Positions 7,206-21,013 of a stretch of 64,000 bases of DNA are shown piece after piece (the stretch's first letter is position 1; the number at the start of each line of letters is the position of its first letter). A model generated the notes under the pieces. The model searched no databases. It had not been told where the DNA came from and worked only from the letters and a program-made list of their open reading frames with translations. A program made the position numbers and the translations under genes. The stretch is from Oscillospiraceae bacterium (lineage in GTDB: Bacteria; Bacillota; Clostridia; Oscillospirales; Acutalibacteraceae). The stretch is taken from assembly GCA_910574995.1 (NCBI GenBank), contig CAJTCS010000006.1, positions 1 to 64,000 on the forward strand, given 5' to 3'.

Positions 7206-8633
7206 TTATCCTTTGATTTTCCCCTCGAACCGCGCCTTTTCTCCGTGGGCCGGGATAGCCGTCGGATAGCCGCCGCCAAAACACGCCAAACACACCTTGC
7301 CGTCTGCGGCATAAGCTTTAGTGTGCTCTAAGCTTAAATAGCCTAAACTGTCCGCGCCTATCTGCTTTCCAATTTCCTTGACGCTGAACTGGCTGGCAAT
7401 AAGCGCGCCCGGGCTGTCGACGTTTGTGCCGTACCAACAGGGCGACACAAAAGGCGGGGCGCTCACCCGCATATGGATCTCTTGGGCCCCGGCCTGGCGC
7501 AGCAGGGTGATAATGCGCCGGCAGGTGGTGCCCCGCACGATGCTGTCGTCAATGAGCACTACCCTTTTTCCCGCTACAGCCGAACGTATGGGGTTGAGCT
7601 TTAAGTTGACCGCGGCTTCCCGCAGGGCTTGGTTCGGCGCAATGAAAGTCCGGGCAATGTATTTGTTTTTTGTGAACCCCATAGCATAGGGGATACCGCT
7701 TTCCCGCGCATAGCCAATGGCAGCGTCCAGCCCGGAATCCGGCACGCCAATAACCACATCCGCATCCACGGGATGTTCCTGGGCCAGCCGGGCCCCGGCT
7801 TTTTGGCGGGCCAGGCTGACGCTTACACCGTCCAGTACGGAATCGGGGCGGGAAAAATAAATATATTCAAAGGCGCATAAGGTCTTGGGGGATTTGTTGC
7901 AGTGCCGCTTATCGCCGCGGACGCCTTCCTTGCTTACCGTCACCACTTCGCCCGGCAAAAGATCCCGGACATAAACCGCCCCAGCGGCGTCCAGGGCGCA
8001 GGTCTCCGATGCGAACAACAGGGCGCCGTCGGGGCGCTTGCCCATGCACAGGGGCCTAAAGCCGTTGGGGTCACGGGCTGCCATAAGCTTGCGGGACGAA
8101 CAGATTACCAGCGAGTAGGCCCCCACCAGATGCTCCATAGCCCGGCACACGGCCTCTTCGATGCTGCCACAGCGGAGACGCTCCCGCACAATAAGATGGG
8201 CGATCACCTCTGAATCTGTAGTTGTGTGGAAAATGGAACCCTGTTCTTCTAAAAACGTGCGTAATTCATAGGCATTGACCAAGTTGCCGTTATGGCACAG
8301 GGCCATACGCCCCTTATGGTGGTTAACGAGCAGAGGCTGCGCGTTGCGCTTGCTGTCAGCCCCAGTGGTGGCGTACCGTACATGGCCCACTGCCATGCTG
8401 CCCTGCCCCAATCCTGCCAACCGCGCCGGCGTGAAAATCTCGCTGACCAACCCCGTTTCCCGGCAGGCGGTAAAGCAGCCTTGGTCATTGAGGACAATGC
8501 CCGCGCTTTCCTGCCCTCGGTGCTGCAGGGCAAACAGCCCGTAGTAACACAGGGCTGCCAGGTCCGTCTTAACGTGGGCGTAGGCCCCGAACACGCCGCA
8601 TTCTTCATGCAGGGCATCCTGCTTTGATTCCAT
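7206..8633 (-). CDS. purF: Amidophosphoribosyltransferase
   Basis: This 475-residue first-committed enzyme of purine synthesis uses glutamine and PRPP. The N-terminus MESKQDALHEE-CGVFG shows the 11-residue propeptide and processed Cys12 nucleophile of the Bacillus-type, Fe-S-containing PurF. The C-terminal VCLACFGGGYPT supplies two of the expected cluster cysteines. The PRPP-binding motif VVLIDDSIVRGTT is intact. Its separation from other pur genes and placement in a nitrogen operon is unusual but logical, since it is the main glutamine drain into purines. Confidence 0.96.
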   Translation of the reverse strand: MESKQDALHEECGVFGAYAHVKTDLAALCYYGLFALQHRGQESAGIVLNDQGCFTACRETGLVSEIFTPARLAGLGQGSMAVGHVRYATTGADSKRNAQPLLVNHHKGRMALCHNGNLVNAYELRTFLEEQGSIFHTTTDSEVIAHLIVRERLRCGSIEEAVCRAMEHLVGAYSLVICSSRKLMAARDPNGFRPLCMGKRPDGALLFASETCALDAAGAVYVRDLLPGEVVTVSKEGVRGDKRHCNKSPKTLCAFEYIYFSRPDSVLDGVSVSLARQKAGARLAQEHPVDADVVIGVPDSGLDAAIGYARESGIPYAMGFTKNKYIARTFIAPNQALREAAVNLKLNPIRSAVAGKRVVLIDDSIVRGTTCRRIITLLRQAGAQEIHMRVSAPPFVSPCWYGTNVDSPGALIASQFSVKEIGKQIGADSLGYLSLEHTKAYAADGKVCLACFGGGYPTAIPAHGEKARFEGKIKG

Positions 8634-8648
8634 CTTGATCCCCTCCCG

Positions 8649-8687
8649 CCAAAAGCCAAAGCGGGGGCAGCCGCAAAACCGCCCCGC
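8649..8687 (-). terminator. Possible weak terminator or attenuator between amt and purF
   Basis: On the minus strand a GCGGGG/CCCCGC stem (8682-8687/8661-8666) is followed by the T-containing stretch TTTGGCTTTTGG. It could reduce read-through from the highly regulated glnA-amt pair into purF. The T-run is interrupted, so this is tentative. Confidence 0.3.
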
Positions 8688-8708
8688 AGGCTTGTGGTCG
8701 ATATGCTT

Positions 8709-10433
8709 TTATCCCTTATCCTGCAAGGCTGCAAAGCCTTCCTCTCCGGTTCGGACTTTGACGACATTCTCCACATCATATATAAAAATTTTCCCATCGC
8801 CGATGTGGCCGGTATACAGGATTTTTTTTGCTGTCGCAATCACGTCCTGGACAGGGACAGCGCTGACCACGATACTCACCTGTACCTTAGGCAAAAGGCT
8901 TGTCTCCACCGCCACGCCGCGGTAATATTCAGGCTTGCCCTTCTGAACGCCGCATCCCATGACATGAGAGACTGTCATGCCGGTAATGCCCAGCTTGGAC
9001 ATAGCTTCCTTGAGGGCATAAAGGCGTTCCTCTTTACAAACAATATCAACTTTGGTGAATTTCCCCTCTGTGGGGCTTCCCAAAGCGGGTGCCCGATCTG
9101 CGGACGGAACCTCTGCGGGTGGTGTGGCGCCGGCCGCCGCAAAGCCATCCTCCAAGGCAAAACCGCTGTAGCTGTCCACTGCCGGGGCGAAATCCGCATA
9201 GGCGCTGGGCAGGCCGTGCTCGCTTGCGTCCAAACCGCGGAGCTCCTCTTCCATGCTGGCCCGCAGGCCTACCGTCTTTTTCATGATTTGGAAAGTGAGC
9301 ACCATAGCAGCTGCCGCATAAGCCGACACGCTGGCAACACCTATAAGCTGTATGCCCAATAAGGAAGCGCTGCCAGTATATAGCAGCCCGGAAAGCCCTG
9401 CCGGGGCTGACGGCGCGGCCAGCAGCCCCACCGCCAGTGTGCCCCAGATACCGTTTGCCATGTGCACCCCTACCGCGCCTACCGGGTCGTCAATATGCAG
9501 CTTTAGGTCAAGCACCTCAACGGTTACTACCACCAGGATGCCCGAAACAACCCCTACGATTGCCGCGCCAACCGCGTCCAGGGCGTCGCATCCGGCTGTG
9601 ATGCCCACCAGGCCCGCCAGGGATGCGTTTAAGCACATGGAAACGTCCGGCTTGCCGTTTTTAACCCATGTATAAACCATCGTGGTACAGGTTGCCACAG
9701 AAGGGGCAATGGTGGTGGTGAGGAAAATAGCGGACAGTTCTGTGGCCGTGGTGGCCGCCGCGCCGTTAAAGCCGTACCAGCCCAGCCACAGGATAAACAC
9801 CCCCAAAGCCCCTAATGGGATCGAATGCCCGGGGATAGCGTTGACCTTCACCACTTTCCCACTTGCGTCTTTAACATATTTGCCGGTACGCGGCCCTAAA
9901 ATCACAGCGCCTACTAAAGCCGCGATGCCGCCCACCATATGGATGGCGCAGGAGCCGGCGTAATCATGGAAGCCTATTTGGGAAAGCCAGCCGCCGCCCC
10001 AAATCCAGTGGGCCTCAATGGGGTATACCAGCAGGGAGATGACGCCGGAATAAACGCAATAGGAAGAAAACTTTGTGCGCTCGGCCATGGCGCCGGAAAC
10101 AATGGTAGCGGTGGTAGCGCAGAATACTAGATTGAATACGAAATAGGAGGCGTCTGTAAATCCTTCTTGGGGCGCGGCGATAAAATCGCCAAAGTGGATG
10201 AATAAATCCAAATTAGGCAGGCCGATAAGGCCAAACAGAGCGTCTTCCCCCATCATCAATGTGTACCCCAGCAATGAAAACACAACGGTGCCGATACAAA
10301 AATCCATCAGGTTCTTCATGATGATATTCCCGGCGTTCTTCGCACGGGTAAATCCTGTCTCTACCATAGCAAACCCCGCCTGCATCCAGAACACAAGGGC
10401 CGCACCGATCAAAAACCAAAATTCTATTGTCAT
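8709..10433 (-). CDS. amt: Ammonium transporter fused to a C-terminal PII domain
   Basis: The 574-residue protein has residues 1 to about 400 forming an Amt channel: eleven predicted spans, with pore-histidine contexts AGSCAIHMVGGIAALVG and GVHMANGIWGTL. After a linker of about 60 residues, residues from about 465 form a GlnB/GlnK-like PII domain starting KVDIVCKEERLYALKEAM and ending with GKIFIYDVENVVKVRTGE. The PII T-loop reads PEYYRGVAVETS, so the tyrosine uridylylated in enteric PII (Y51) is absent and control must be by nucleotide and 2-oxoglutarate binding. Fusion puts the gate on the channel itself. It lies 25 bases after glnA in the same operon. Confidence 0.95.
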   Translation of the reverse strand: MTIEFWFLIGAALVFWMQAGFAMVETGFTRAKNAGNIIMKNLMDFCIGTVVFSLLGYTLMMGEDALFGLIGLPNLDLFIHFGDFIAAPQEGFTDASYFVFNLVFCATTATIVSGAMAERTKFSSYCVYSGVISLLVYPIEAHWIWGGGWLSQIGFHDYAGSCAIHMVGGIAALVGAVILGPRTGKYVKDASGKVVKVNAIPGHSIPLGALGVFILWLGWYGFNGAAATTATELSAIFLTTTIAPSVATCTTMVYTWVKNGKPDVSMCLNASLAGLVGITAGCDALDAVGAAIVGVVSGILVVVTVEVLDLKLHIDDPVGAVGVHMANGIWGTLAVGLLAAPSAPAGLSGLLYTGSASLLGIQLIGVASVSAYAAAAMVLTFQIMKKTVGLRASMEEELRGLDASEHGLPSAYADFAPAVDSYSGFALEDGFAAAGATPPAEVPSADRAPALGSPTEGKFTKVDIVCKEERLYALKEAMSKLGITGMTVSHVMGCGVQKGKPEYYRGVAVETSLLPKVQVSIVVSAVPVQDVIATAKKILYTGHIGDGKIFIYDVENVVKVRTGEEGFAALQDKG

Positions 10434-10457
10434 TTTCTTTCACCTCTCAAGCGTTTT

Positions 10458-12560
10458 TCACACCCCGAACAATAAATCCCCATATGTCGGGAACGGCCAG
10501 TCTTTTTGGCCAACCATAGACTCGGCTTTGTCGCAGGGCTTCCGCAGGGCCTCCATGGCCGGGATGACCTCCCCCTTTACCAGGATCGCCTGGGCGGTCA
10601 CATCCACAGCCCTATCCAGTGCGGTAAGCTTTTCCGCAAGGGCATCCGCTGCCTGGTCGATCTCATCCAGAAGCCCGGAGATCGCGGCGCTGGCTTTCTT
10701 CTCATAGCCGCTTACAAGGGCTGGGTCAACTTTGGCCTTGTCGGCCATAGCCGCTGCCAAGCTTCCGGCGTACCGCTGCACAGCGGGCAAAATCTCCCGC
10801 CTGGCCATGTCCTCCATGGTCAGGGCCTCAATCTTGACTGTGCGGGTGTAGTTTTCCAGCTGGATCTCATAGCGGGAACGCAGTTCGCCCTCTGTAAAGA
10901 CCCCGTTCTTCAGCAGCATTTCCATATTCCCCTTGTCCAGCAGGTGCGCCATGGCGTCGGGCGTTGTGGGCAGGTTTAAAAGGCCGCGCTTTTCCACAGC
11001 TTCCTCTATCCATTGGCCATCGTAGCCGTTCCCATTAAAGAGGATGCGCTTGTGGGAGATAATGGTTTCTTTTATCAATCCATGCAGGATGGCGTCAAAA
11101 TCGCCGGCCCCTTCCAGGATGTCGGCGAACTGCCGGAGGGCTTCAGCCACTGCCGCGTTGAGCATGATGTTGGCACAGGCGATAGAATCCCCTGACCCTA
11201 CCATGCGGAACTCGAACTTATTGCCTGTAAAAGCAAAGGGGCTGGTACGGTTGCGGTCGGTAGTGTCCTGGGTGATGCGGGGCAAGGCGTCCACACCCAG
11301 CTTCATCTTTTTCTGGGCTGTCCCCTCATAGGGGCTGTCCATCTCGATAGCTTCCAGGATGGCCGAAAGCTCGTCACCCAGGAAGATGGAAACCACGGCG
11401 GGGGGCGCTTCGTTTGCCCCCAGGCGGTGGTCGTTGCCCGCGGTGGCCACGCTTAAACGCAGCAGGCTCTGATATTCGTCTACCGCCTTGATGACCGCCA
11501 CCAGGAACAGCAGGAACTGGGCGTTCTCATAAGGGGTCTCGCCGGGAGAGAGAAGGTTTACCCCGGTGTCTGTTGCCATAGACCAGTTGTTGTGTTTGCC
11601 GCTGCCGTTTACCCCGGCAAAGGGCTTTTCGTGCAGCAGGCACACCAGGCCATGCCTGCGGGCCACCTTCTTCATAATCTCCATAGTCAGCTGGTTGTGG
11701 TCGGTAGCCACGTTGGTACTGGCGTAAATGGGCGCCAGCTCGTGCTGGGCGGGGGCAACCTCGTTATGCTCGGTTTTGGCCAGGATGCCCAGCTTCCACA
11801 GCTCTTCATTGAGGTCATCCATATACGCCTGCACCCGGGGCTTGATGGAGCCAAAATAGTGGTCCTCCAGCTCTTGGCCTTTGGGCGGGTTCGCCCCAAA
11901 CAGCGTGCGGCCTGTATAAATCAAATCCTTGCGCTTAAGGTACATGTCCCGGTCTACCAGGAAGTATTCCTGCTCTGGGCCCACATGGGTGATGACGCGG
12001 CTGGCCGCTGTGTTGCCGAACAGCCGCAGGATACGCAGGGCCTGTTTATTCAGGGCCTCCATACTGCGCAGGAGAGGCGTTTTTTTATCTAAGGCTTCCC
12101 CGCTGTAGGAACAGAACGCGGTGGGGATGCACAGCGTCTTATCTTTAATAAAAGCAAAGCTGGTGGGGTCCCATGCGGTGTAGCCCCGGGCCTCGAAGGT
12201 GGCCCGCAGGCCGCCGGAAGGGAAGGAGGAGGCATCCGGTTCACCGCGGATGAGTTCTTTCCCGGAAAACTCCATAATAACCCGGCCGCCGGGAGCGGGG
12301 GTGATGAAAGAGTCATGCTTCTCCGCGGTGATGCCTGTCAACGGCTGGAACCAGTGGGTAAAATGGGTGGCCCCATTCTCTACAGCCCAAGTACACATAG
12401 CGGCGGCCACGGCGTTTGCCAAGGATAAATCCAGCCGGGCGCCCCGCCGGATAGTCTGCTTTAAAGAACGGTATACTTCTGGGGTCAGGCGGGCACGCAT
12501 GGCCTGTTCATCGAAAACTTTGCTGGCGAAAAAATCCGGCACATGATAGGGGGTCTGCAT
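10458..12560 (-). CDS. glnA: Glutamine synthetase type III
   Basis: The 700-residue GSIII (GlnN type) condenses glutamate and ammonia to glutamine. GSIII-specific features seen are the long N-terminal region, [38 protein letters not shown], and [20 protein letters not shown] with catalytic glutamates, followed by [10 protein letters not shown] and [10 protein letters not shown]. The start ATG at 12560 has AAAGGAGAG 5' of it. It is the first gene after a strong promoter and a terminator-type leader, so expression depends on antitermination. The amt-PII gene follows directly, the usual assimilation pair. Confidence 0.96.
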
Positions 12561-12586
12561 AGCTCATCTCTCCTTTTAGGTTTTCT

Positions 12587-12647
12587 AAAAAACGAAGAGA
12601 GGCAACGGCGTCTGCGGGAGGCTTTCCCATAGACGCCGTTGTCTCTC
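12587..12647 (-). terminator. Leader terminator upstream of glnA
   Basis: In the leftward transcript, GAGAG-A-CAACGGCGTCT (12647-12631) pairs with AGACGCCGTTG-C-CTCTC (12613-12597): 16 base pairs with one mismatch. TTCGTTTTTT (12596-12587) follows. This is a strong intrinsic terminator placed between promoter and ribosome site, so transcription stops before glnA unless it is prevented from folding. Confidence 0.85.
12617..12644 (-). promoter_or_regulatory. Candidate ANTAR-binding double hairpin in glnA leader
   Basis: The 5' terminator arm can instead fold as AGAC-[AACGGC]-GTCT (12644-12631), a 4-bp stem with a hexaloop having A at position 1 and G at position 4. A second small stem GGG-[AAAGCC]-TCC (12628-12617) also has an A1/G4 hexaloop, though a pentaloop pairing is possible. 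Paired A1/G4 hexaloop hairpins that exclude a terminator are the described ANTAR-protein target. The ANTAR gene at 17021 is the obvious partner. Confidence 0.7.
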
Positions 12648-12657
12648 AACGCCGACT

Positions 12658-12686
12658 AGCATACACTCATTTTTGCAAGTTGTCAA
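12658..12686 (-). promoter_or_regulatory. glnA operon promoter
   Basis: Minus strand TTGACA (12686-12681), 17-base spacer, TATGCT (12663-12658). Transcription should start near 12651, just upstream of the leader terminator. Confidence 0.8.
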
Positions 12687-12762
12687 GCTGTTTGTTGCAT
12701 TTTTGTTTATATAAACAATTTTTAAGGCATAATTTTAAAAAACCTTACTGCTATATGCAGGG

Positions 12763-12792
12763 TTGACAAGTGAAAATTGCATATCGTATAAT
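12763..12792 (+). promoter_or_regulatory. Promoter of the split glutamate synthase operon
   Basis: TTGACA (12763-12768), 18-base spacer, TATAAT (12787-12792). It is a near-consensus sigma-A promoter firing away from the glnA promoter about 80 bases off. The expected start at about 12799 falls at the very beginning of the leader hairpin. Confidence 0.85.
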
Positions 12793-12800
12793 AAGAGGCA

Positions 12801-12843
12801 AGGACAAAGGCGTTCGTGGAATACGTCTTTATGTCCTTTTTTT
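12801..12843 (+). promoter_or_regulatory. Leader terminator with alternative ANTAR-type hairpin
   Basis: AGGACA/TGTCCT and AAGGCGT/ACGTCTT pair (12801-12813 with 12823-12837, 2-base bulge) and run into TTTTTTT, giving an intrinsic terminator. The 5' arm can alternatively fold as GGAC-[AAAGGC]-GTTC (12802-12815), again a 4-bp stem with A1/G4 hexaloop and an A-G mismatch below it, the same architecture as in the glnA leader. I could not find a convincing second hexaloop hairpin here. An ATG at 12816 lies inside the structure and is not the gene start. Confidence 0.7.
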
Positions 12844-12863
12844 ATTTTGGGAGGGACTTATCT

Positions 12864-13967
12864 ATGATACGACCGGAACTTTTTGAAGGGCAAGTCCGCA
12901 TCCCTTCCGGCTGCGCTATTTCAGCGGTGATCTCACGGGAGGGGCGGCTTATCAGCGGCCAGACCATTGTGGACAGTATGCGCCCCATGCATGAGCGGTC
13001 AAACGGGCTGGGGGGCGGATTCGCGGGGTACGGCATTTATCCCGAATATAAAGATTTCTTTGCCCTGCACATCTTCTATGATACGGATGAGGCCCGCGCC
13101 GCCGTTGAATCCCACCTGCGCGCTGTGCTGGAGATTGTCCGGGCAGAGAACATCCCCACCCGCAAGCACCCGGCCATCACAGCCGAGCCTTTTATCTGGC
13201 GCTATTTCGTGGCCCCCCTGCGGTCGGTGCTGCATAGCCGCCAGCAGGATGAGGAGGAATTCATTGCCCAGCTGGCCATGCGCGTCAATACAAGCTATCC
13301 GGGGGCATACGTGTTCTCCAGCGGGAAAAATATGGGCGTATTCAAGGCTGTGGGCTACCCCGAAGACGTAGGCGTATTCTACCGGCTGGAAGAATACAGC
13401 GGCTACTGCTGGACCGCCCATGGCCGCTACCCCACGAACACCCCCGGCTGGTGGGGCGGGGCGCACCCTTTTGCGCTGCTGGACAGGACCATTGTCCATA
13501 ACGGCGAGATTTCTTCTTACGACTGCAACCGCCGCACCATCGAGATGTACGGCTACAAATGCACCCTGCAAACGGATACAGAGGTCATCACCTATATTGC
13601 TGATTTTTTACAGCGCAAGCAGGGCCTCACATTGGAAGAAATGGCCTCGGTAATCGCCGCGCCCTTCTGGTCTACTATAGAGCGGCAGCCGAAAGGCAAA
13701 AGCCGGGAGTTGGCGTATCTGCGTACAGTCTACTCCAGTTTGCTGATAACCGGGCCGTTCTCCATTATTTTGGGCTTTCGCGGCGGGCTGATGGCCCTGA
13801 ACGACCGCCTGAAATTACGCAGCATGGTGGTGGGCGAAAAAGACGACAAGGTTTACATAGCCAGTGAAGAAGCGGCTATCCGCGCAGTGGAGCCAAGCGC
13901 AGAAAACATCTGGGCCCCGGCGGGGGGCCAGCCCGTGGTAGTGCGGGTGCGGGAGGGGGCATATTAA
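12864..13967 (+). CDS. Glutamate synthase glutaminase subunit (GltB domain 1 type, GlxB-like)
   Basis: The 367-residue class II glutamine amidotransferase corresponds to the first domain of large-subunit glutamate synthase as a free protein. The start at 12864 is chosen for GGGAGGG just upstream; the earlier in-frame ATG lies within the terminator. The presumed nucleophile is Cys17 in IPSGCAISAV, preceded by 16 residues that would have to be removed. Characteristic class II segments are GRYPTNTPGWWGGAHPFALL and HNGEISSYDCNRR. It is followed after 2 bases by the FMN domain protein, so ammonia probably passes between separate chains in a complex. Confidence 0.87.
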   Translation: MIRPELFEGQVRIPSGCAISAVISREGRLISGQTIVDSMRPMHERSNGLGGGFAGYGIYPEYKDFFALHIFYDTDEARAAVESHLRAVLEIVRAENIPTRKHPAITAEPFIWRYFVAPLRSVLHSRQQDEEEFIAQLAMRVNTSYPGAYVFSSGKNMGVFKAVGYPEDVGVFYRLEEYSGYCWTAHGRYPTNTPGWWGGAHPFALLDRTIVHNGEISSYDCNRRTIEMYGYKCTLQTDTEVITYIADFLQRKQGLTLEEMASVIAAPFWSTIERQPKGKSRELAYLRTVYSSLLITGPFSIILGFRGGLMALNDRLKLRSMVVGEKDDKVYIASEEAAIRAVEPSAENIWAPAGGQPVVVRVREGAY

Positions 13968-13969
13968 AA

Positions 13970-15469
13970 ATGGGGCAATGGGAAGTTTATCCGGAATTTG
14001 AAGTGGTGCGCAGCAGCGCCCGCTGTACAAAATGTTTGGGCTGTGTGGCCCAATGCGCTAACGGGGCGCATCAATATGATGGGGCACAACTGACCTGTGA
14101 CAGCGCCAAGTGCGTGGGTTGCCACCGCTGTGTAGCTATGTGCCCCACCCGGGCTCTGAAAATCGTAAAGGCGGACTGTGCCCTGCGTGAAAACGGCAAC
14201 TGGGACAGCCAGACTATCAAAGAGATCTTTAAGCAGGCCCAAAGCGGCGGCGTTCTTTTAAGCAGCATGGGCACGCCAAAGCCCTATCCAGTCTATTGGG
14301 ACAAGCTGCTGCTCAATGCCAGCCAGGTGACCAACCCCTCCATTGACCCCTTGCGGGAGCCCATGGAAACCCGCGTCTGTCTGGGCAAGAAACCGGGCAG
14401 GCCCCAGCGCGGGCCGGACGGCCGCTTTACCTGTGAACTGCCGCCCCAGCTGAAGCTTACTATGCCCATGCTGTTTTCAGCCATGAGTTACGGCTCTGTC
14501 AGTTATAACGTCCACGAGGCCCTGGCCCGGGCGGCAGAGGAACTGGGCGTCTACTATAATACCGGCGAAGGCGGCCTGCATGAAGATTTTTATACATACA
14601 GCCCTAATACCATTGTGCAGGTGGCGTCAGGACGGTTCGGGGTGCACGAAGGGTACTTAAACGCCGGGGCGGCCATTGAAATCAAGATGGGGCAGGGGGC
14701 CAAGCCGGGCATTGGCGGGCATCTGCCCGGGACCAAGGTAGGGGCCGATATATCCCGTACCCGCATGATCCCCGAGGGCAGCGATGCTATCTCCCCGGCC
14801 CCCCATCATGATATTTATTCCATTGAAGACCTGCGCCAGCTGGTGTATTCCTTAAAGCAGTCCACCCACCACAAAAAGCCAGTCATCGTGAAGGTGGCGG
14901 CCGTGCACAACATTGCGGCTATCGCCAGCGGCATTGCCCGCAGCGGCGCGGACATTATCGCCATAGACGGCTTCCGGGGCGGTACAGGCGCCGCCCCCAC
15001 CCGAATCCGGGACAATGTGGGCATCCCCATTGAGCTGGCCCTGGCGGCGGTAGACCAACGCCTGCGTGACGAGGGGATACGGAACCAGGTAGGCATCATC
15101 GCCGGAGGGAGCATACGCTCCTCGGCAGATGTGGCTAAAGCTATCGCCCTGGGCGCAGATGCGGTTTATATTGCAACGGCGGCGCTGCTGGCGCTGGGCT
15201 GCCATCTGTGCCGTACCTGCCAGACCGGTATGTGCAACTGGGGCATTGCCACCCAAAGGCCGGAACTGGTGGCCCGTTTAGACCCCAAAGAGGGGGCAAA
15301 ACGCCTGGTAAACCTAATGACCGCCTGGAACCACGAGATTATGGAAATGCTGGGCGGCATGGGCATCAATTCTATAGAGGCCCTGCGGGGCAACCGTTTG
15401 ATGCTGCGGGGCATTGGGCTAACGGCAAAGGAACTGGAGATTTTGGGCGTAGCCCACGCGGGGGAATGA
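13970..15469 (+). CDS. Glutamate synthase FMN/Fe-S subunit (GltB central domain type)
   Basis: This 499-residue protein starts with two ferredoxin-type [4Fe-4S] motifs (CTKCLGCVAQC and CVGCHRCVAMCP, residues about 20-65). They are followed from about residue 150 by the FMN-binding glutamate synthase barrel: IEIKMGQGAKPGIGGHLPG, IAIDGFRGGTGAAP and the cluster segment CHLCRTCQTGMC-NWGIATQRP. It makes glutamate from 2-oxoglutarate and ammonia released by the amidotransferase partner. The fused ferredoxin module suggests electrons arrive from ferredoxin or an unlinked partner; no NADPH-oxidising GltD gene is in the window. Confidence 0.9.
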   Translation: MGQWEVYPEFEVVRSSARCTKCLGCVAQCANGAHQYDGAQLTCDSAKCVGCHRCVAMCPTRALKIVKADCALRENGNWDSQTIKEIFKQAQSGGVLLSSMGTPKPYPVYWDKLLLNASQVTNPSIDPLREPMETRVCLGKKPGRPQRGPDGRFTCELPPQLKLTMPMLFSAMSYGSVSYNVHEALARAAEELGVYYNTGEGGLHEDFYTYSPNTIVQVASGRFGVHEGYLNAGAAIEIKMGQGAKPGIGGHLPGTKVGADISRTRMIPEGSDAISPAPHHDIYSIEDLRQLVYSLKQSTHHKKPVIVKVAAVHNIAAIASGIARSGADIIAIDGFRGGTGAAPTRIRDNVGIPIELALAAVDQRLRDEGIRNQVGIIAGGSIRSSADVAKAIALGADAVYIATAALLALGCHLCRTCQTGMCNWGIATQRPELVARLDPKEGAKRLVNLMTAWNHEIMEMLGGMGINSIEALRGNRLMLRGIGLTAKELEILGVAHAGE

Positions 15470-15500
15470 CCCCTGTGCAAAGTAAAGGAGGCGCGGTATA

Positions 15501-16223
15501 ATGGCCTATAAAATAATGGCCCAAGGCTTAGACGCGGCCGGGCTGGGCAGGCAGATCCAAGCGCACCCCGGCCCGGTAGAGGTCGTGGGATGCCTGGGGC
15601 AGCGGTTTATCGGGGCGGGGATGCAAAAAAAGAAAATTCGTGTTACCGGCATACCAGGGAACGCCCTGGGGGCCTACCTCAACGGCGGTGAGATAGAAGT
15701 GTGCGCAAACGCCCAAGACGCTGTAGGCGACACCATGAATGCCGGCACCATTGTAATCCACGGGGATGTGGGCGACACGGTAGGGTACGCCATGCGGGGC
15801 GGGGAAATCTATGTGGAAGGCTCGGCGGGCTACCGGGCTGGGGTGCATATGAAGGAGTACCAGGACAAGGTGCCGGTAATGGTCATCGGCGGCCGGGCCG
15901 GCAGCTTCCTGGGGGAGTACCAGGCAGGCGGGGTGATCCTGGTGCTGGGGCTGACGGGTTCGGGCCCCATTGCCGGGAACTTCCCCTGTACAGGAATGCA
16001 TGGCGGCAAGGTGCTGCTGCGGTGCCGCCCGGAAGAACTCCTTTTCCCCGGCCAGGTGACGGCTCTCCCGGCATCTCCCCAAGACCTGGATGCCGTGCGG
16101 CCATATTTAGAAGAATTCTGCCGCCGCTTCGGCAAAGACCTGTCGGCTGTTTTAAACGCCCCCTTTACCCTGGCGGTCCCGGACAGCCGGAATCCGTACC
16201 GGCAGATGTATGTAGCCAATTAA
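15501..16223 (+). CDS. Glutamate synthase GXGXG-domain subunit (GltB C-terminal type)
   Basis: The 240-residue right-handed beta-helix protein equals the third domain of GltB: NAGTIVIHGDVGDTVGYAM and the repeated G-rich coils GSAGYRAGVHMKEY and GGRAGSFLGEYQAGG. It has a structural and channelling role rather than chemistry of its own. It completes the three-piece synthase with the two preceding genes. AAGGAGGCG lies 5' of ATG 15501, and the next gene starts 13 bases after its stop. Confidence 0.88.
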   Translation: MAYKIMAQGLDAAGLGRQIQAHPGPVEVVGCLGQRFIGAGMQKKKIRVTGIPGNALGAYLNGGEIEVCANAQDAVGDTMNAGTIVIHGDVGDTVGYAMRGGEIYVEGSAGYRAGVHMKEYQDKVPVMVIGGRAGSFLGEYQAGGVILVLGLTGSGPIAGNFPCTGMHGGKVLLRCRPEELLFPGQVTALPASPQDLDAVRPYLEEFCRRFGKDLSAVLNAPFTLAVPDSRNPYRQMYVAN

Positions 16224-16236
16224 CAGGAGGATACTT

Positions 16237-17016
16237 ATGGAATTTACCCAAGACGATGTATTGCGCTATGTAAAAAGCGAAGATGTGAAATTCATCCGTT
16301 TGGCGTTCTGTGATACCGAAGGGCGCCAGAAGAACCTGGCCATCATGCCGGAGACGCTTCCCCGGGCGTTCTCCCAGGGTATTCCAGTAGATGGCCAGGC
16401 ATTACCGGGTTTTGGAACCGAGCCTGTGCTTTTGCGCCCAGACCCCAAGACTTTGCTGCAAATGCCCTGGCGGCCCCAGCACGGGCGGGTGGTGCACATG
16501 TTCTGCGATCTGGTGACCTTGGACGGTACGCCCCACCCCCAGGACGTCCGGTGGCAGCTGAAAGAACTCACACAGCAGATGGAGTGTACTGTAGCGGCAG
16601 AGATGCTTTTTGCCCTGTACAAACTGGATGAGCAGGGCCGCCCCACAACTGAGCCCCAGGACGAAGCGGGGTATCTGGACATAGCCCCCACAGACCGCGG
16701 GGAGAATGTGCGCCGGGCCATCTGCCTAACCCTGGAGCAGATGGGCATCCAGCCGGAAAGCTCCCACCACGGGGCGGGGCCGGGCAGGAACCTGATCCGC
16801 TACCAGGGCGCGGGCCCTTTAAAGGCTGCGGACAACATGGTAACGTTTCAGGCGGTGGTACGCACAATAGCGGACCAAAACGGGCTTTTTTCAGAATTCC
16901 CCCATCCTCCCCGGCTCTTTATAACCCAGGGGGCTAACGTGCGGGAAGCCATACCCCAAAAGGACTGGCAAAACCCGTACCGGCTCATGGCAGCTCTGGC
17001 AGGAGGGCAGGTGTAA
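16237..17016 (+). CDS. Truncated glutamine-synthetase-like protein lacking catalytic glutamates
   Basis: 259 residues align to the first 60% of GSI: the beta-grasp N-terminus (VKFIRLAFCDTEGRQKNLAI), a DLVTLDGTPHPQDVR segment, then YLDIAPTDRGENVRRAICLTLEQMGI and KAADNMVTFQAVVRTIA. GSI has ASHHEVAPGQHE, where both glutamates bind metal; this protein reads SSHHGAGPGRNL, so both are lost. The ATP and ammonia-site half is missing and the protein ends with a normal stop behind an intact frame. A conserved-looking, non-decayed ORF with a good ribosome site (AACAGGAGG) suggests a retained pseudoenzyme, not a pseudogene. The ANTAR regulator begins 4 bases after it, so I infer a sensory or regulatory role. 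Confidence 0.85.
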   Translation: MEFTQDDVLRYVKSEDVKFIRLAFCDTEGRQKNLAIMPETLPRAFSQGIPVDGQALPGFGTEPVLLRPDPKTLLQMPWRPQHGRVVHMFCDLVTLDGTPHPQDVRWQLKELTQQMECTVAAEMLFALYKLDEQGRPTTEPQDEAGYLDIAPTDRGENVRRAICLTLEQMGIQPESSHHGAGPGRNLIRYQGAGPLKAADNMVTFQAVVRTIADQNGLFSEFPHPPRLFITQGANVREAIPQKDWQNPYRLMAALAGGQV

Positions 17017-17020
17017 GCAT

Positions 17021-17608
17021 ATGGTATTCGAACCGGAGCCTTATAGTGTACTTATTGTTTCCCCAGGCGACCGTTTCCGGGAAAGCCTGTCCCCCCTCTT
17101 GCCGCCAGGTTCCTTTAACCCGGTTTGTGTTGCCCACAGCTGTGCCGAAGCAAGGCGGAAGCTGCTGGAGCGGGGGTTTGACCTGGTTCTCATCAATTCC
17201 CCCTTGCCCGATGGCCCAGGCCTGCCTTTAGCGGAGGATCTGTGCGCCGAAACAGAAGCCGGGGTGCTGCTGTTGGTTCCGGCGGGGGCCTACGAGGAAA
17301 CCGCTGCCCAGGCCCAGCAGAGCGGGGCAATCACACTGCATAAACCCAGCGGCCGGCTGCTGGCTTCACACAGCCTGCAAGCCCTCTGCGCTATGCGGGA
17401 ACGGCTGCGGGCACGGAGCCGCAGGCAGGTTACGGTAGAAGAGAAGATCCAAGAGCTGCAGCTGATTGACCGGGCCAAGTGGGTACTGATAGAAAAGAAA
17501 GGTTTTACAGAGCCAGAAGCCCACCGGGCTTTAGAACGCATGGCGATGGAACAACGCATAACCAAGACGCAGGCCGCTCAGCGGATAGTGGGGGGAATAT
17601 CGATTTGA
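17021..17608 (+). CDS. ANTAR-domain antiterminator with degenerate receiver
   Basis: The 195-residue protein has residues about 8-125 with a response-regulator receiver fold. The phosphoacceptor position reads FDLVLINSPLPDG, Asn59 in place of Asp. The N-terminal acidic pair is reduced to SPGD. The switch Lys108 (LHKPSG) remains. A short helix (KIQELQLIDRAK) leads into an ANTAR domain (about 135-195) with WVLIEKKGFTEPEAHRALERMA and an I-TKTQAAQRIV ending, the RNA-binding module that stabilises A1/G4 hexaloop hairpins. No histidine kinase is near. Both divergent leaders at 12.6-12.8 kb carry matching hairpins, so this is probably their antiterminator, including its own operon (autoregulation). 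Confidence 0.9.
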   Translation: MVFEPEPYSVLIVSPGDRFRESLSPLLPPGSFNPVCVAHSCAEARRKLLERGFDLVLINSPLPDGPGLPLAEDLCAETEAGVLLLVPAGAYEETAAQAQQSGAITLHKPSGRLLASHSLQALCAMRERLRARSRRQVTVEEKIQELQLIDRAKWVLIEKKGFTEPEAHRALERMAMEQRITKTQAAQRIVGGISI

Positions 17609-17612
17609 AAAG

Positions 17613-17659
17613 GCAGATTTTGAGGTGGGGCGCATTTTGCGTCCCACCTCAAAATCTGC
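17613..17659. terminator. 22-bp perfect hairpin between convergent genes
   Basis: The arms 17613-17634 and 17638-17659 pair over 22 bases with one G-T pair and a 3-base loop, beginning 4 bases after the ANTAR stop. On the minus strand it is followed by CTTTTC, so it works best as a terminator for the leftward MFS gene; the plus side lacks a T-run. Its length is unusual for a bacterial terminator. Confidence 0.7.
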
Positions 17660-17695
17660 GCTGCTTAACAAAGAAACGTAATTTTGATACGATTT

Positions 17696-18934
17696 TCAAT
17701 GAGGCGTCTCTTGATTTGAAATCCGAACACGTCTTTTCGGATTATTCCCATCCTTCCTCTCAACACCCCACAAAACCACAAGAGCCATCATGAGCATCCC
17801 ACCGCTGGCCAGCGGCAGAACAAACGCAGGCCACACCTCCGACAGCCCGCCTGCAAGGACAAGCGACAGCGGGATCAGCACATAAGAAATGGCCGTAGAT
17901 ATGCCCAGCACCCTGCCCAGGAAGGCTGGATTGACAAAAAGCTGGAGGGTGGTTTTCGTTTGTATGTTGATGTCTACCGACAGCCACCCGACGGCAAACA
18001 TAATGGCACAAAGCGCTGTCACAGACCAAGATTGATGGCCAGTCAGGCACGCTGACAGGGAGAGAAGCAGCGTGCAGCCCCCAAGGAACCCCATTTTCCC
18101 GAAAGGGTACTGTAAGCGGCTGGTGCCGGGGGATTTCGTCCGCCACACCGCGCACAGCACCGACCCTGCCGCTGTGCTGCTGGAAATTACCCCGTAGCCG
18201 CCGGAGGAGATGCCCAGGGCCGTGGTGACGATCAAGGGTAAAGCCACATTGATGCCAGCGGTAACAAAGAAGTTCCCCAGGCTGTCCGCGAGGAAGAAGG
18301 CGCGCAGCTTCCCTGACCCGAACATGTAGGCAAGCACCGCCCGGCTGTCGGCCTTATCCGGCAAAGGCTGACTTGCCTGCCGGGGACGGTATTTCAGCCA
18401 CAATTCCCCAAACGCGGACAGTAAAAAAGACGCCATGTTGATGGCCGCGAACATCTGCACTGGCAATACTTGGATTAGCAAACCGCCCAAAGAGGGGGCG
18501 ATGATATTAGCGCCCGAGGTAATGGACTGCACAGCAGAGGCCAGCCTTTTCAAGCTTTCGGGGTTGTCCACGCCCTCCAGGTGGACGAGGTGCGCGTCCA
18601 TAACATTATTGAAAACAGCGGAGATAGCAGACAGAAGGAAAATCGTGACGTAAATGCTTATTAGGCTCAAATGAACCAGCGGCAGGCAGCAGACCACCGC
18701 GCTGGCCGCGTCGCACAAAACCAGCAGGCGGTTGGGATGGCGGGCCTTGCCGCTGATATGCCCCGCAAGGAGGGAGAGGAGGATCTGCGGCAGGTAGTTG
18801 ACCAGGAGGGACAGGCTGAAGTCCATGCCAGAACCGGATTCGGATAAAATGTACCAGCTCAGGGCAAAGGTGAACAGGCGTGTGCCGATGTGGGACGCGC
18901 CTTTGCTGAATAAGAATAATACCCTATTTTTCAT
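17696..18934 (-). CDS. MFS transporter
   Basis: This is a major-facilitator protein of 412 residues from the preferred ATG 18934 (MKNRVLFLFSKGASHIGTRL); an ATG at 18970 overlapping the HEPN stop would add 12 unlikely residues. About twelve hydrophobic spans are seen, with NVMDAHLVHL and GLLIQVLPVQMFAAINMASF in the positions typical of the MefA/enterobactin-exporter-like MFS subgroup. It likely exports drugs or small molecules across the cytoplasmic membrane; no substrate can be deduced. It is preceded by the HEPN gene and ends at the 22-bp hairpin. The gene lies in acquired DNA. Confidence 0.85.
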   Translation of the reverse strand: MKNRVLFLFSKGASHIGTRLFTFALSWYILSESGSGMDFSLSLLVNYLPQILLSLLAGHISGKARHPNRLLVLCDAASAVVCCLPLVHLSLISIYVTIFLLSAISAVFNNVMDAHLVHLEGVDNPESLKRLASAVQSITSGANIIAPSLGGLLIQVLPVQMFAAINMASFLLSAFGELWLKYRPRQASQPLPDKADSRAVLAYMFGSGKLRAFFLADSLGNFFVTAGINVALPLIVTTALGISSGGYGVISSSTAAGSVLCAVWRTKSPGTSRLQYPFGKMGFLGGCTLLLSLSACLTGHQSWSVTALCAIMFAVGWLSVDINIQTKTTLQLFVNPAFLGRVLGISTAISYVLIPLSLVLAGGLSEVWPAFVLPLASGGMLMMALVVLWGVERKDGNNPKRRVRISNQETPH

Positions 18935-18966
18935 CGCGTACCCCGTTCCACAGTGCCGTAAGCGTT

Positions 18967-19275
18967 TCATTTTGAAACGCCGCCACCCGGCGACAGATCT
19001 TTCGAGAATATACCGGGTTTAATATATTTTTCCCTGAAATGGGAAATCACACCGGAATGTTTCTTATAATCAACGCCTTCCAACGCAAGAACAGCCCTCA
19101 TACTATGGAATATCGTGTAATAGGAGCGATTAACGCAGTCCTTGTACCGAGCATTTTCGTAAAGGAGTCGGGCAGTTTTCAGGGTCTCTTTAGCCGCCTC
19201 AATTCTATAGTTGGAAAACTTCTCGCCATTTGGTATCAGGCATATAACTGCACCCCTTCGTTGTGGATGTTCCAA
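18967..19275 (-). CDS. HEPN-domain protein, shortened (HepT-like)
   Basis: This is a 102-residue frame whose residues 18-90 match HEPN proteins: FSNYRIEAAKETLKTARLL, then CVNRSYYTIFHSMRAVL containing the ribonuclease motif R-x6-H, then VDYKKHSGVISHFREKYI. The usual last 35-40 residues of a HEPN protein are missing; after GIFSKDL the frame ends SPGGGVSK. It overlaps the upstream MNT gene by 40 bases and no better in-frame start exists, so the N-terminus is also uncertain. HEPN/MNT pairs are type VII toxin-antitoxin systems in which the MNT enzyme AMPylates the HEPN RNase. The truncation may have inactivated the toxin while keeping its catalytic motif. Confidence 0.75.
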   Translation of the reverse strand: MEHPQRRGAVICLIPNGEKFSNYRIEAAKETLKTARLLYENARYKDCVNRSYYTIFHSMRAVLALEGVDYKKHSGVISHFREKYIKPGIFSKDLSPGGGVSK

Positions 19276-19577
19276 TAATATGGCAGCACATTTTGATAAT
19301 TCTGAAAATCTGCAAAAGGAATAGCGGTAGGCGAAACGGTGATCCCATAGGTTAGGCTCAGTTCAGAAGAAATCTCGCCCAATCGTGCAAAGGCTTTGTG
19401 GAGTGTTTCCCGGGAACAGTCTACAAGTGCGGCGACATCCACATCAGATTCTTCGTCAGGGTTTCCCCGAGCGTAGGAACCGTATAAAATGACCTGCCGA
19501 AGGGAATCGCCAAATAACCTGCGATACTCTGAAACCAAATCGGCGGTTAATCCATTTAGCTGCTCAACGGTACACAT
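19236..19577 (-). CDS. MNT-type nucleotidyltransferase antitoxin (MntA-like)
   Basis: 113 residues from ATG 19577, chosen for GGAGGGAGC immediately upstream. The minimal nucleotidyltransferase signature G-S-x10-D-x-D is present as GSYARGNPDEESDVDVAALV, the metal-binding pair being the two aspartates. In type VII systems this protein adds AMP to a tyrosine of the partner HEPN toxin. It is first in a two-gene unit with the HEPN gene and has its own promoter at 19609-19637. Confidence 0.85.
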   Translation of the reverse strand: MCTVEQLNGLTADLVSEYRRLFGDSLRQVILYGSYARGNPDEESDVDVAALVDCSRETLHKAFARLGEISSELSLTYGITVSPTAIPFADFQNYQNVLPYYWNIHNEGVQLYA

Positions 19578-19608
19578 ACACGCTCCCTCCTCAACTTTTG
19601 TTAAATTT

Positions 19609-19637
19609 AGTATAGCATAGATTATGAAAATGCTCAA
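19609..19637 (-). promoter_or_regulatory. Promoter of MNT/HEPN unit
   Basis: Minus strand TTGAGC (19637-19632), 17-base spacer, TATACT (19614-19609), 32 bases before the MNT start codon. Confidence 0.65.
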
Positions 19638-19716
19638 GTAGGGTATTTGCAGGGCTTACATGTCATCAACTCTACCCTCAGTTGAGTTTTCCTCCCAAAA
19701 AACAAAAAATCCGTTA

Positions 19717-19745
19717 TTGTAGCGCAAACACGATTTGCTTATAAT
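19717..19745 (+). promoter_or_regulatory. Promoter of HTH-AIRS/ABC operon
   Basis: TTGTAG (19717-19722), 17-base spacer, TATAAT (19740-19745), 33 bases before ATG 19778. AACTCTACCCTCAGTTGAG, an imperfect inverted repeat at about 19669-19687, lies upstream and could bind a regulator. Confidence 0.6.
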
Positions 19746-19777
19746 AGTATTTAAGGTAGCAAGAGGAGGAACACAAT

Positions 19778-21013
19778 ATGCTTGACAGCCAAAAAATATC
19801 CAATTTTATAGCCGTGAAACGGAAAGAATTGCGGCTGACCCAGGCCGAGATTGCGGAAAAGCTCAAGGTTTCCTATCAGGCGGTATCCAGGTGGGAAAAT
19901 GGTACGATTCCCAATGTGGAAATTCTGGTGGAACTGGCCCGGCTATTGAACGTGTCGGTAGATACATTGCTCAGTGGTGGGGATAGGATCACTTATGAGC
20001 AGGCCAACATGGATTTAGCCCATTTCTCCGCGCTGAAAGAAAAAATTGTTCGCCATCTTACCACAGATGACAGTCGCATCCTAAAAGGGCCTGTGGCACA
20101 TACGATGTTTTATGACTTCCAGTTTCCCGACATAGAATCGCCAGTGCTAGTCACAAGCTCTGGATGGTCTATGTCAAAATGCAAACTGGCGGCACAGTAT
20201 GGATACGGCGAATTAGTGGGCTGCGATATTGTGAATGACTTGGTAAGTAATATAATCGCAGCAAGAGCAAAACCACTCTTTGTTACAGACTGCCTTGCAA
20301 TTGGAAATGACAGCGATGATGTTTTGATGTCTATCATAAAGGGGATTTCTGACGCCTGTAAGGAAAGCGGTTGTTCTTTGGTAGGCGGCGGTACCTATAT
20401 TCAATCACCGTCATTGCTAAAAGACACATATACTATATCCGCCAACATTTCAGGCGTTGTATCAAAGAAATGTCTTATGGATGGGCACTTGATCTGTGAT
20501 GGTGACATAATACTTGCAATAGCGTCTAATGGGCCGCACAGCGCAGGTTACACGCTGATCAATGTACTTATAGATAAGAACCCGCTGATTAAAAAACAAT
20601 TGGTGGCTGGAGAACCTTTCCTTAAACAGGTAATGAAGCCTCATGCGTCCTACTATAAGGCGCTCAGCCCTCTGGTTGGCAGATCGGATGTCCATGGGAT
20701 AGTCCACCACAGCCGGGGGCGCGACCATTTACGGCGACTCCTTCCGGAGGGTCTGTGCGCCGAAATTTATCTAAATCAGGTGCGTCCGCTGCCCATATTC
20801 AGTTACATCAAAAAGATGGGAAATATCCCGGAAAGGGAAATGCTTGCATCCTATAATTGCGGCATGGGAATGTGGATAGTCGTCGCTAAAGAGAGTGCAA
20901 GTGAAATTGCGGATATAGTGGGCAAGCATTACGACTGCTACCCGATAGGAAAAATCACGGCCGGGCACGATATATCCGAAAAAGTGATGTACAAAGGGGC
21001 TGTAAATTGGTAG
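19778..21013 (+). CDS. XRE-type HTH fused to an AIR-synthase-like domain
   Basis: 411 residues. Residues 1-65 form a Cro/CI-type helix-turn-helix (LRLTQAEIAEKLKVSYQAVS, RWENG). Residues about 90-405 follow the PurM/AIR synthase fold: DIVNDLVSNIIAARAKPLF, IIKGISDACKESGCSLVGGG, GDIILAIASNGPHSAGYTLI and LLPEGLCAEI. The nucleotide loop, GTDGVGTK in PurM, reads SSGWSMSK; the aspartate of the VND motif is displaced; and the glycine motif HITGGG is replaced by HHSRGR. I infer a ligand-sensing transcription factor rather than a purine enzyme. It heads an operon with an ABC-2 exporter. Around 20700-20740 another frame preserves an AGGAT stretch, so a compensated frameshift is possible. Confidence 0.8.
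   Translation: MLDSQKISNFIAVKRKELRLTQAEIAEKLKVSYQAVSRWENGTIPNVEILVELARLLNVSVDTLLSGGDRITYEQANMDLAHFSALKEKIVRHLTTDDSRILKGPVAHTMFYDFQFPDIESPVLVTSSGWSMSKCKLAAQYGYGELVGCDIVNDLVSNIIAARAKPLFVTDCLAIGNDSDDVLMSIIKGISDACKESGCSLVGGGTYIQSPSLLKDTYTISANISGVVSKKCLMDGHLICDGDIILAIASNGPHSAGYTLINVLIDKNPLIKKQLVAGEPFLKQVMKPHASYYKALSPLVGRSDVHGIVHHSRGRDHLRRLLPEGLCAEIYLNQVRPLPIFSYIKKMGNIPEREMLASYNCGMGMWIVVAKESASEIADIVGKHYDCYPIGKITAGHDISEKVMYKGAVNW

Follow-up and report, generated by a model that had tools for sequence, protein, structure and literature searches.

In Clostridium saccharobutylicum the genes glnA and nitR are presumably neighbours. NitR, an ANTAR protein, is described in a review as capable of antitermination and as inducing genes of the GS/GOGAT cycle on nitrogen limitation (PMC6316151). 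The ANTAR regulators AmiR and NasT are controlled by partner proteins; AmiR is a non-phosphorylated pseudo-receiver, NasS resembles a nitrate-binding protein and AmiC binds small molecules (PMC3369936, PMC3795266). A dual-hairpin (two-hexaloop) antiterminator motif has also been published (PMC3369931). In Bacillus, glutamine synthetase (GS) itself informs GlnR and TnrA, docking through the E flap, the D50 loop and α14-15 of the feedback-inhibited active enzyme (PMC9249791). Across the listed titles and abstract openings of open-licence PMC papers, no half or dead GS paired with an ANTAR protein was found.

Here we describe such a pair in a window of 64,000 nucleotides from an Oscillospiraceae bacterium. 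In this group of gut bacteria a glutamine-making enzyme seems to have become, through successive losses, a non-enzymatic partner of an ANTAR regulator of nitrogen genes; in the window genome about half of the enzyme remains, and selection still maintains it.

A GS-like gene behind three glutamate synthase genes

The genes of the locus are as follows.

8709..10433, minus strand: ammonium transporter fused to a C-terminal PII domain
10458..12560, minus strand: type III glutamine synthetase (GSIII), one of two GSIII genes
12864..13967, plus strand: glutamate synthase glutaminase-domain protein (listed open reading frame from 12816; likely start 12864, with the homologous start in locus L059)
13970..15469, plus strand: glutamate synthase FMN-domain protein with a 4Fe-4S segment
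15501..16223, plus strand: glutamate synthase GXGXG-domain protein
16237..17016, plus strand: GS-like pseudoenzyme, 259 residues, β-grasp domain and first half of the GS barrel
17021..17608, plus strand: ANTAR regulator, 195 residues, composed of a pseudo-receiver in which Asn takes the place of the phospho-Asp, together with a coiled coil and an ANTAR domain (Pfam ANTAR, 53.7 bits)

Three glutamate synthase domain genes thus precede the GS-like gene, while GSIII and the transporter-PII fusion run divergently; GSIII (10458..12560) is likely the working GS beside this locus. The genome (99.98% complete) holds two GSIII genes and, besides the window gene, no other Gln-synt_C match; relocation of the C-terminal GS half to another site was rejected, as the matches at an E-value of 0.001 comprise these three genes only. 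GSIII was present in 43 of 44 genomes tested, and in the exception, G008, the GS encoded at this locus retains both flap Glu and thong, a single case that fits the view that the presence of GSIII freed the locus GS from catalytic duty. The transporter-PII fusion is a possible second nitrogen sensor at the locus. In L059 (5578-7262), ferredoxin-like and FAD oxidoreductase genes lie between the FMN and GXGXG genes, where the window has neither.

The open reading frame at 16237-17016 (plus strand) begins with ATG, is preceded by an AGGAGG ribosome site and encodes 259 residues, and the ATG of the ANTAR gene lies at 17021, four bases after the stop codon. The intact frame, good translation signals and four-base spacing that an earlier note had read from the DNA are therefore borne out. 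The encoded protein has β-grasp and catalytic-domain homology to type I GS (GSI): it matches Gln-synt_N with 49.6 bits (cut-off 33.4) over residues 16-93, the β-grasp domain, and Gln-synt_C with 65.7 bits over residues 113-221, a match confined to positions 18-137 of the 344 in the profile (Pfam). Its GlnA equivalog score, 117.7 bits, is below the cut-off of 429.15 (NCBIfam). The predicted fold is compact and confident, the best PDB matches are GSI enzymes, and likeness to GSI in fold and sequence spans residues 1-225.

The last ~30 residues (..NPYRLMAALAGG) are a candidate remnant of the GS NPY helix, and the gene may have been shaped by an internal deletion rather than by plain truncation. 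Structural alignment (VIA-align) matches residues 1-259 of the model to 1-353 of GS chain 7tdp_C, although the NPY pairing it contains is not independent because the alignment supplied to AlphaFold had already paired these residues. Support for the remnant by hhalign was not significant (E 0.17, score 11.6, with shuffles reaching 17.7), nor was the profile alignment, which 36, 46 and 22 of 150 shuffles matched. The earlier view that the protein ends before the ATP half holds in that this half is absent; that the cause was plain truncation is less secure, since an NPY-helix remnant may be retained.

Loss of the catalytic residues

The metal ligands of GSI, which we take to be E132, E134, E189, E196, H245 and E333 (B. 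subtilis numbering), are largely missing. The window protein displays SSHHGAGPGRNLI at the place where 4s0r has ASHHEVAPGQHEI, and in its E-x-E pair the first Glu is retained (AEMLF) and the second lost, so that the retained part has lost three of its four metal glutamates. The same pattern is seen in all four window-type proteins: E132 is retained, E134 is replaced by Leu or Pro, E189 by Gly and E196 by Leu, Asn or Val is aligned at H245, and the E333 region is absent or an uncertain remnant. The segment that carries H245, R298, flap residue E304, R316 and R321 is absent from the window protein, and the flap and arginines are gapped in 4/4 window-type sequences. The earlier note had described a protein devoid of metal-binding glutamates, which is correct for E134, E189 and E196 and incorrect for E132, the first of the E-x-E pair. 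Its further proposal, that this pseudo-GS binds glutamine or a nucleotide, finds no support, as E134, E189, E196 and the H245-R321 segment are gone; with these elements lost, the classical glutamine and ATP sites cannot form. On these sequence grounds, classical binding of either ligand by the window form is not supported, although the protein may sense a ligand through a new site.

The shortened gene is retained under purifying selection

The window form of the gene occurs in four species, the window and three further genomes of the genus whose proteins display 95, 94 and 70% identity to it; because the same form recurs in these three genomes it is neither a chance product nor an assembly error. 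The reading frame is open in all four despite up to 30% protein divergence. The dN/dS of the window gene against the three species is 0.21 (0.08-0.41), 0.17 (0.09-0.29) and 0.167 (0.10-0.25), similar to the values for the ANTAR gene (0.14-0.18), and 80 of 101 family-conserved positions are unchanged in all four window-type proteins. The last 34 residues (226-259) are less constrained, with a ratio of 0.48-0.62 in two close pairs, and the β-grasp part gave 0.53 between L056 and L057 (4 synonymous and 7 nonsynonymous changes). Selection on the gene is thus purifying (dN/dS about 0.17-0.21 across four species), as the retention proposed earlier requires, and the relaxed selection and frameshifts that would have spoken against it were not observed.

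The GS-like gene is linked to an ANTAR gene

An ANTAR gene lies at most 275 bases downstream at 50 of 51 distinct GS-like loci, and the remaining locus runs into a contig end. The window is among the 30 best family matches, which together with L059 and 20 other loci of the genus make up the 51. The 30 are the best-scoring matches, lower-scoring ones (36-43% identity, probably ordinary GSI) being left out except for L054, a separate canonical GSI of 443 residues with no ANTAR gene, which together with repeat records is excluded from the 51. L056-L058 seem to represent the same species as L035-L037, each of which is counted once in the linkage, while L053 and L055, two pieces of one fragmentary genome, are omitted from the protein tables.

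The association was also evident in a survey that started from the ANTAR gene. Among 147 genomes of the order, 78 contained an ANTAR match, and GS was encoded directly upstream in 40 of the 43 readable loci (45 opened from 80 match rows, two of them cut by contig ends); three of these 40 are from genomes that had been included before. At the other three of the 43 the GS gene is absent upstream of the ANTAR gene within the stretch read. One of these, L141 (572-1968), has the ANTAR gene directly after the GXGXG gene of a glutamate synthase operon, with the GS gene missing, and such loci indicate that the ANTAR protein can work without GS. In larger stretches the GS-ANTAR pair was intact in 24/24, and a complete glutamate synthase adjoined it in 19/24; the five pairs lacking one are L062, L075, L076, L077 and L078, with a GXGXG gene ~10 kb away in the last. 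The earlier note had suggested a check for co-occurrence of short GS homologues with ANTAR genes; linkage of GS-like and ANTAR genes is near-universal at the loci surveyed (50/51, 40/43 and 24/24), and the lack of linkage elsewhere that would have undermined its proposal is not seen.

The two proteins also diverge in concert. The correlation of GS and ANTAR distances is 0.92, and the partial correlation given GXGXG is 0.75 (33 genomes), a value that was reached in 0 of 1,000 permutations, which ignore shared ancestry. In the window type both evolve relatively faster (GS 2.0-fold, ANTAR 1.55-fold, compared with 1.15-fold for GXGXG). Both the linkage and the rate co-variation could be a mere effect of membership of one operon.

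Relatives display a graded loss of flap, thong and metal ligands

The aligned set comprised 87 GS proteins, after L101, L111 and L121 had been dropped as their genomes were already present. Flap Glu and thong are both present in nine of the 87, including L054. The flap residue is Lys in 58 proteins, Arg in three, Asn in one and Gly in eight, and the thong is absent from all 70 of these. The flap Glu is present but the thong absent in L028 and L128, another two proteins have the thong and Ala or Leu at the flap, and the region is missing from the four of the window type. Relatives with flap Glu and thong that lie beside an ANTAR gene are L029, L126, L127, L133, L135, L137, L139 and L140, and they are candidates for working GS enzymes that also inform the ANTAR protein. 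One idea is that the flap Lys found in 58/87 might mimic bound ammonium and so lock the GS site.

In the tree, flap loss is a single event (support 95/86) that arose within the flap-Glu stock; the deepest rooting is unsure because the long branches of L054 and L139 meet. Within the flap-lost clade metal ligands have been lost in three supported clades, the window type (100/100), clade B (100/100) and a K189 clade (98/95). Clade B (L045-L052) encodes nearly full-length proteins beside ANTAR genes in which E134D, E189I, E196R and H245R are found in 8/8, and its GS-like protein is, as judged from these residues, an independent pseudoenzyme. Scattered single ligand changes occur in L011, L030, L104/L119 and L131. 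L128 and L134/L136, which do not belong to the flap-lost clade, have lost ligands as well, and the order of the steps is therefore not strict. L059, with 393 residues and all ligands, is the sister of the window type (100/98).

All six metal ligands are kept in 62 of 82 relatives, with at least one lost in the other 20; among complete copies from the genus at least one is lost in 16/20. In the first set of ~403-residue relatives, 31 of 37 keep all six, R298, R316, R321 and R335 are present in 37/37, and Lys, Arg or Asn stands in place of the flap Glu in 35/37. Most of the ~400-residue relatives might, on their residues, bind a ligand or catalyse some reaction, and the dN/dS is 0.05-0.07 in two intact ~403-residue pairs.

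Constraint on the two halves of the protein changes with the flap. In flap-Glu proteins the halves diverge equally (median distance ratio 1.02, 45 pairs), whereas in flap-lost proteins the first half is the more constrained (0.79, 1,891 pairs; 0.78 in clade B, 28 pairs). The first 225 residues had the lower dN/dS in 9/9 pairs, none of which is of the flap-Glu kind and some of which share a member. The more constrained half is the one kept by the window lineage, in which most of the second half has been lost.

The ANTAR regulator has a pseudo-receiver

The gene at 17021-17608 is the only ANTAR (PF03861) match in its genome. The AlphaFold model of the protein (pLDDT 91.7, pTM 0.71) displays a receiver-like fold, a coiled coil and an ANTAR domain. 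Profile matches include 1s8n (a putative antiterminator), EutV, AmiR and the nitrate regulatory protein 4akk, while structure matches to the model were mostly receiver domains, with EutV the sole ANTAR protein among the best 50 (VIA). Of 49 ANTAR proteins, 44 have Asn at the phospho-acceptor position and a single one has Asp, and the acidic pocket is not preserved. Control by phosphorylation is thus unlikely, and the absence of a phosphorylatable receiver makes a protein partner a plausible input, as in the direct control by the pseudo-GS that the earlier note proposed.

Immediately after the gene, at 17611-17660, lies a long near-perfect palindrome (-43.8 kcal/mol, z -9.12), which is probably a terminator between two convergent genes; its arm occurs once elsewhere in the genome, with two mismatches. 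An Rfam search of 8000-20000 returned one chance match below its cut-off, on this palindrome.

Conserved leaders precede both divergent operons

The elements found in the leaders of the window are listed below.

12763..12792, plus strand: promoter-like TTGACA-N18-TATAAT of the glutamate synthase operon (sequence, pattern test)
12802..12815, plus strand: hexaloop hairpin GGAC[AAAGGC]GTTC in the glutamate synthase leader
12800..12843, plus strand: intrinsic-terminator-like hairpin with T-run, overlapping the hexaloop (mutually exclusive folds; 12788-12862, -18.2 kcal/mol, z -2.23)
12631..12644, minus strand: hexaloop hairpin AGAC[AACGGC]GTCT in the leader of the divergent GSIII-amt operon
12587..12641, minus strand: terminator hairpin CAACGGCGTC..GACGCCGTTG with T-run, overlapping the GSIII-amt hexaloop (12561-12660, -47.3 kcal/mol, z -6.71)

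A promoter-like site, a hexaloop and a T-run were present in 20/20 readable glutamate synthase leaders (25 stretches examined), compared with 1 of 4,000 dinucleotide shuffles. The loop follows the consensus A..GGC, with A at position 1 and G at position 4. Stem positions paired in 115 of 125 cells versus 46-72 when the alignment was slid, the search pattern itself fixing two letters of the 3' stem. On the divergent strands (300 nt read) the element and a promoter were found in 12/20, ten of which also have the T-run. The overlap between hexaloop and folded terminator, computed for the window, holds on both strands. By eye, a second hexaloop, a hairpin of the GGG[AAAGCY] type, could be traced in the GSIII leaders from the window, L056 and L057, with none clear elsewhere. 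Genome-wide, GACAANGGCGTY occurs at 19 sites versus nine for the reversed control, and two of the 19 are at this locus, both in leaders. By eye, the short flanks of the other 17 contain no promoter/terminator layout and look coding. The second GSIII gene (C3) displayed no such hexaloop/terminator leader in the stretch read.

Discussion

The explanation that we favour, and consider reasonably probable, is that this GS-derived pseudoenzyme is a dedicated, non-enzymatic protein partner of the adjacent ANTAR antiterminator. Its basis in the sequence comprises the catalytic loss, the predicted fold that has been kept, purifying selection, the ANTAR linkage, the pseudo-receiver and the conserved leaders. 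The GS-like protein would dock on the pseudo-receiver through its β-grasp/half-barrel part, and docking would either hold the ANTAR protein in, or release it from, a dimer competent to bind RNA. Such a switch would set antitermination of the operon that carries the glutamate synthase genes along with the GS-like and ANTAR genes themselves, and the same switch may act on the divergent GSIII-amt operon.

Stages of this conversion may still be alive among the relatives. The ancestral partner would have been a canonical-looking GS whose active site could signal glutamine or ATP status; once the flap Glu was lost, constraint on the catalytic half would have weakened, and most of that half disappeared in the window lineage. 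With it gone, the window form must be an adaptor, or else sense through a new site or another protein. A canonical ligand signal is possible in the long relatives, but not in the window form. We give even odds to the full sequence of steps, in which an enzyme became a regulator by losing the flap and the ring-linking tail, then, repeatedly, the metal site, and in one lineage became a half-subunit that is only a docking partner of a pseudo-receiver. The outcome would be a new architecture of ANTAR control, in which the partner has the GS fold.

Other readings of the locus account for part of these data. The GS-like protein may be an accessory or assembly subunit of glutamate synthase or of GSIII, its adjacency to the ANTAR gene reflecting only co-expression, and the complete glutamate synthase that adjoins 19 of 24 pairs, the neighbouring GSIII operon and the near-universal GSIII (43/44 genomes) are in keeping with such a role. 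We nevertheless find it fairly improbable, as the pair persists at the five loci lacking an adjoining complete glutamate synthase and the GS-ANTAR rate co-variation survives removal of the GXGXG signal. It is also conceivable, though improbable, that the ~403-residue relatives are functional enzymes, either slow GS or ligases for a different amine, and that the window form branched off and took on a new, unrelated function. The replacement of the flap Glu by Lys, Arg or Asn in 35/37, the loss of the thong, the weaker constraint on the catalytic half, unlike that in flap-Glu relatives, and the loss of metal ligands without truncation in a second ANTAR-adjacent clade all argue against this reading, which draws on the six ligands in 31/37, the four arginines in 37/37 and the low dN/dS (0.05-0.07) of two pairs.

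The loss of about half of the domain and of most catalytic residues, together with the faster tail (226-259), might instead point to a decaying pseudogene, kept only because the ribosome site of the ANTAR gene lies in its end. This is disfavoured and highly improbable: such a site would need the last codons only, while the frame is open in four species with dN/dS of 0.17-0.21, 80/101 conserved positions are unchanged and the fold is confident. The pseudogene reading was rejected on the dN/dS and the retention in four species.

In Bacillus it is hard to separate catalysis, ligand binding and protein surface as the source of the GS signal. The relatives described here have lost the flap, the metal site and half of the protein while keeping the regulator, and the question of which part of GS talks to a regulator thus becomes testable. 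If the dedicated-partner explanation is true, a GS-fold partner joins the known inputs of ANTAR antiterminators. The data also suggest a possible mode of nitrogen-gene control for a large group of Clostridia in which GSIII is the probable working GS.

Compared with type I-α GS (GlnA), the window protein is alike over residues 1-225 and has lost metal ligands, the flap, the arginines and the thong. In the Bacillus system a GS protein likewise informs a nitrogen regulator encoded beside it (glnRA); that regulator, however, is a MerR-type DNA binder, whereas the one in the window is an ANTAR protein, and the docking parts are here changed or missing (PMC9249791). As the E flap and α14-15 thong are missing from the window protein, the GlnR/TnrA mode should not apply, and docking of this type was rejected. 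In C. saccharobutylicum, GS, ANTAR and glutamate synthase genes are likewise under one nitrogen control (PMC6316151), and the flap-Glu relatives in the present order resemble this arrangement. It differs in that the GS beside the ANTAR gene is here a pseudoenzyme without most of the catalytic half, the likely working GS being GSIII with its own leader. The leaders fit the logic of ANTAR antitermination as outlined in PMC3369931, but the second hexaloop was not consistently found. With AmiC-AmiR and NasS-NasT the window pair has in common a conserved adjacent partner gene and an input domain that, by its residues, is non-phosphorylated. AmiC has a periplasmic-binding-protein fold, while the putative partner in the window has the fold of GS and is not periplasmic-binding-protein-like.
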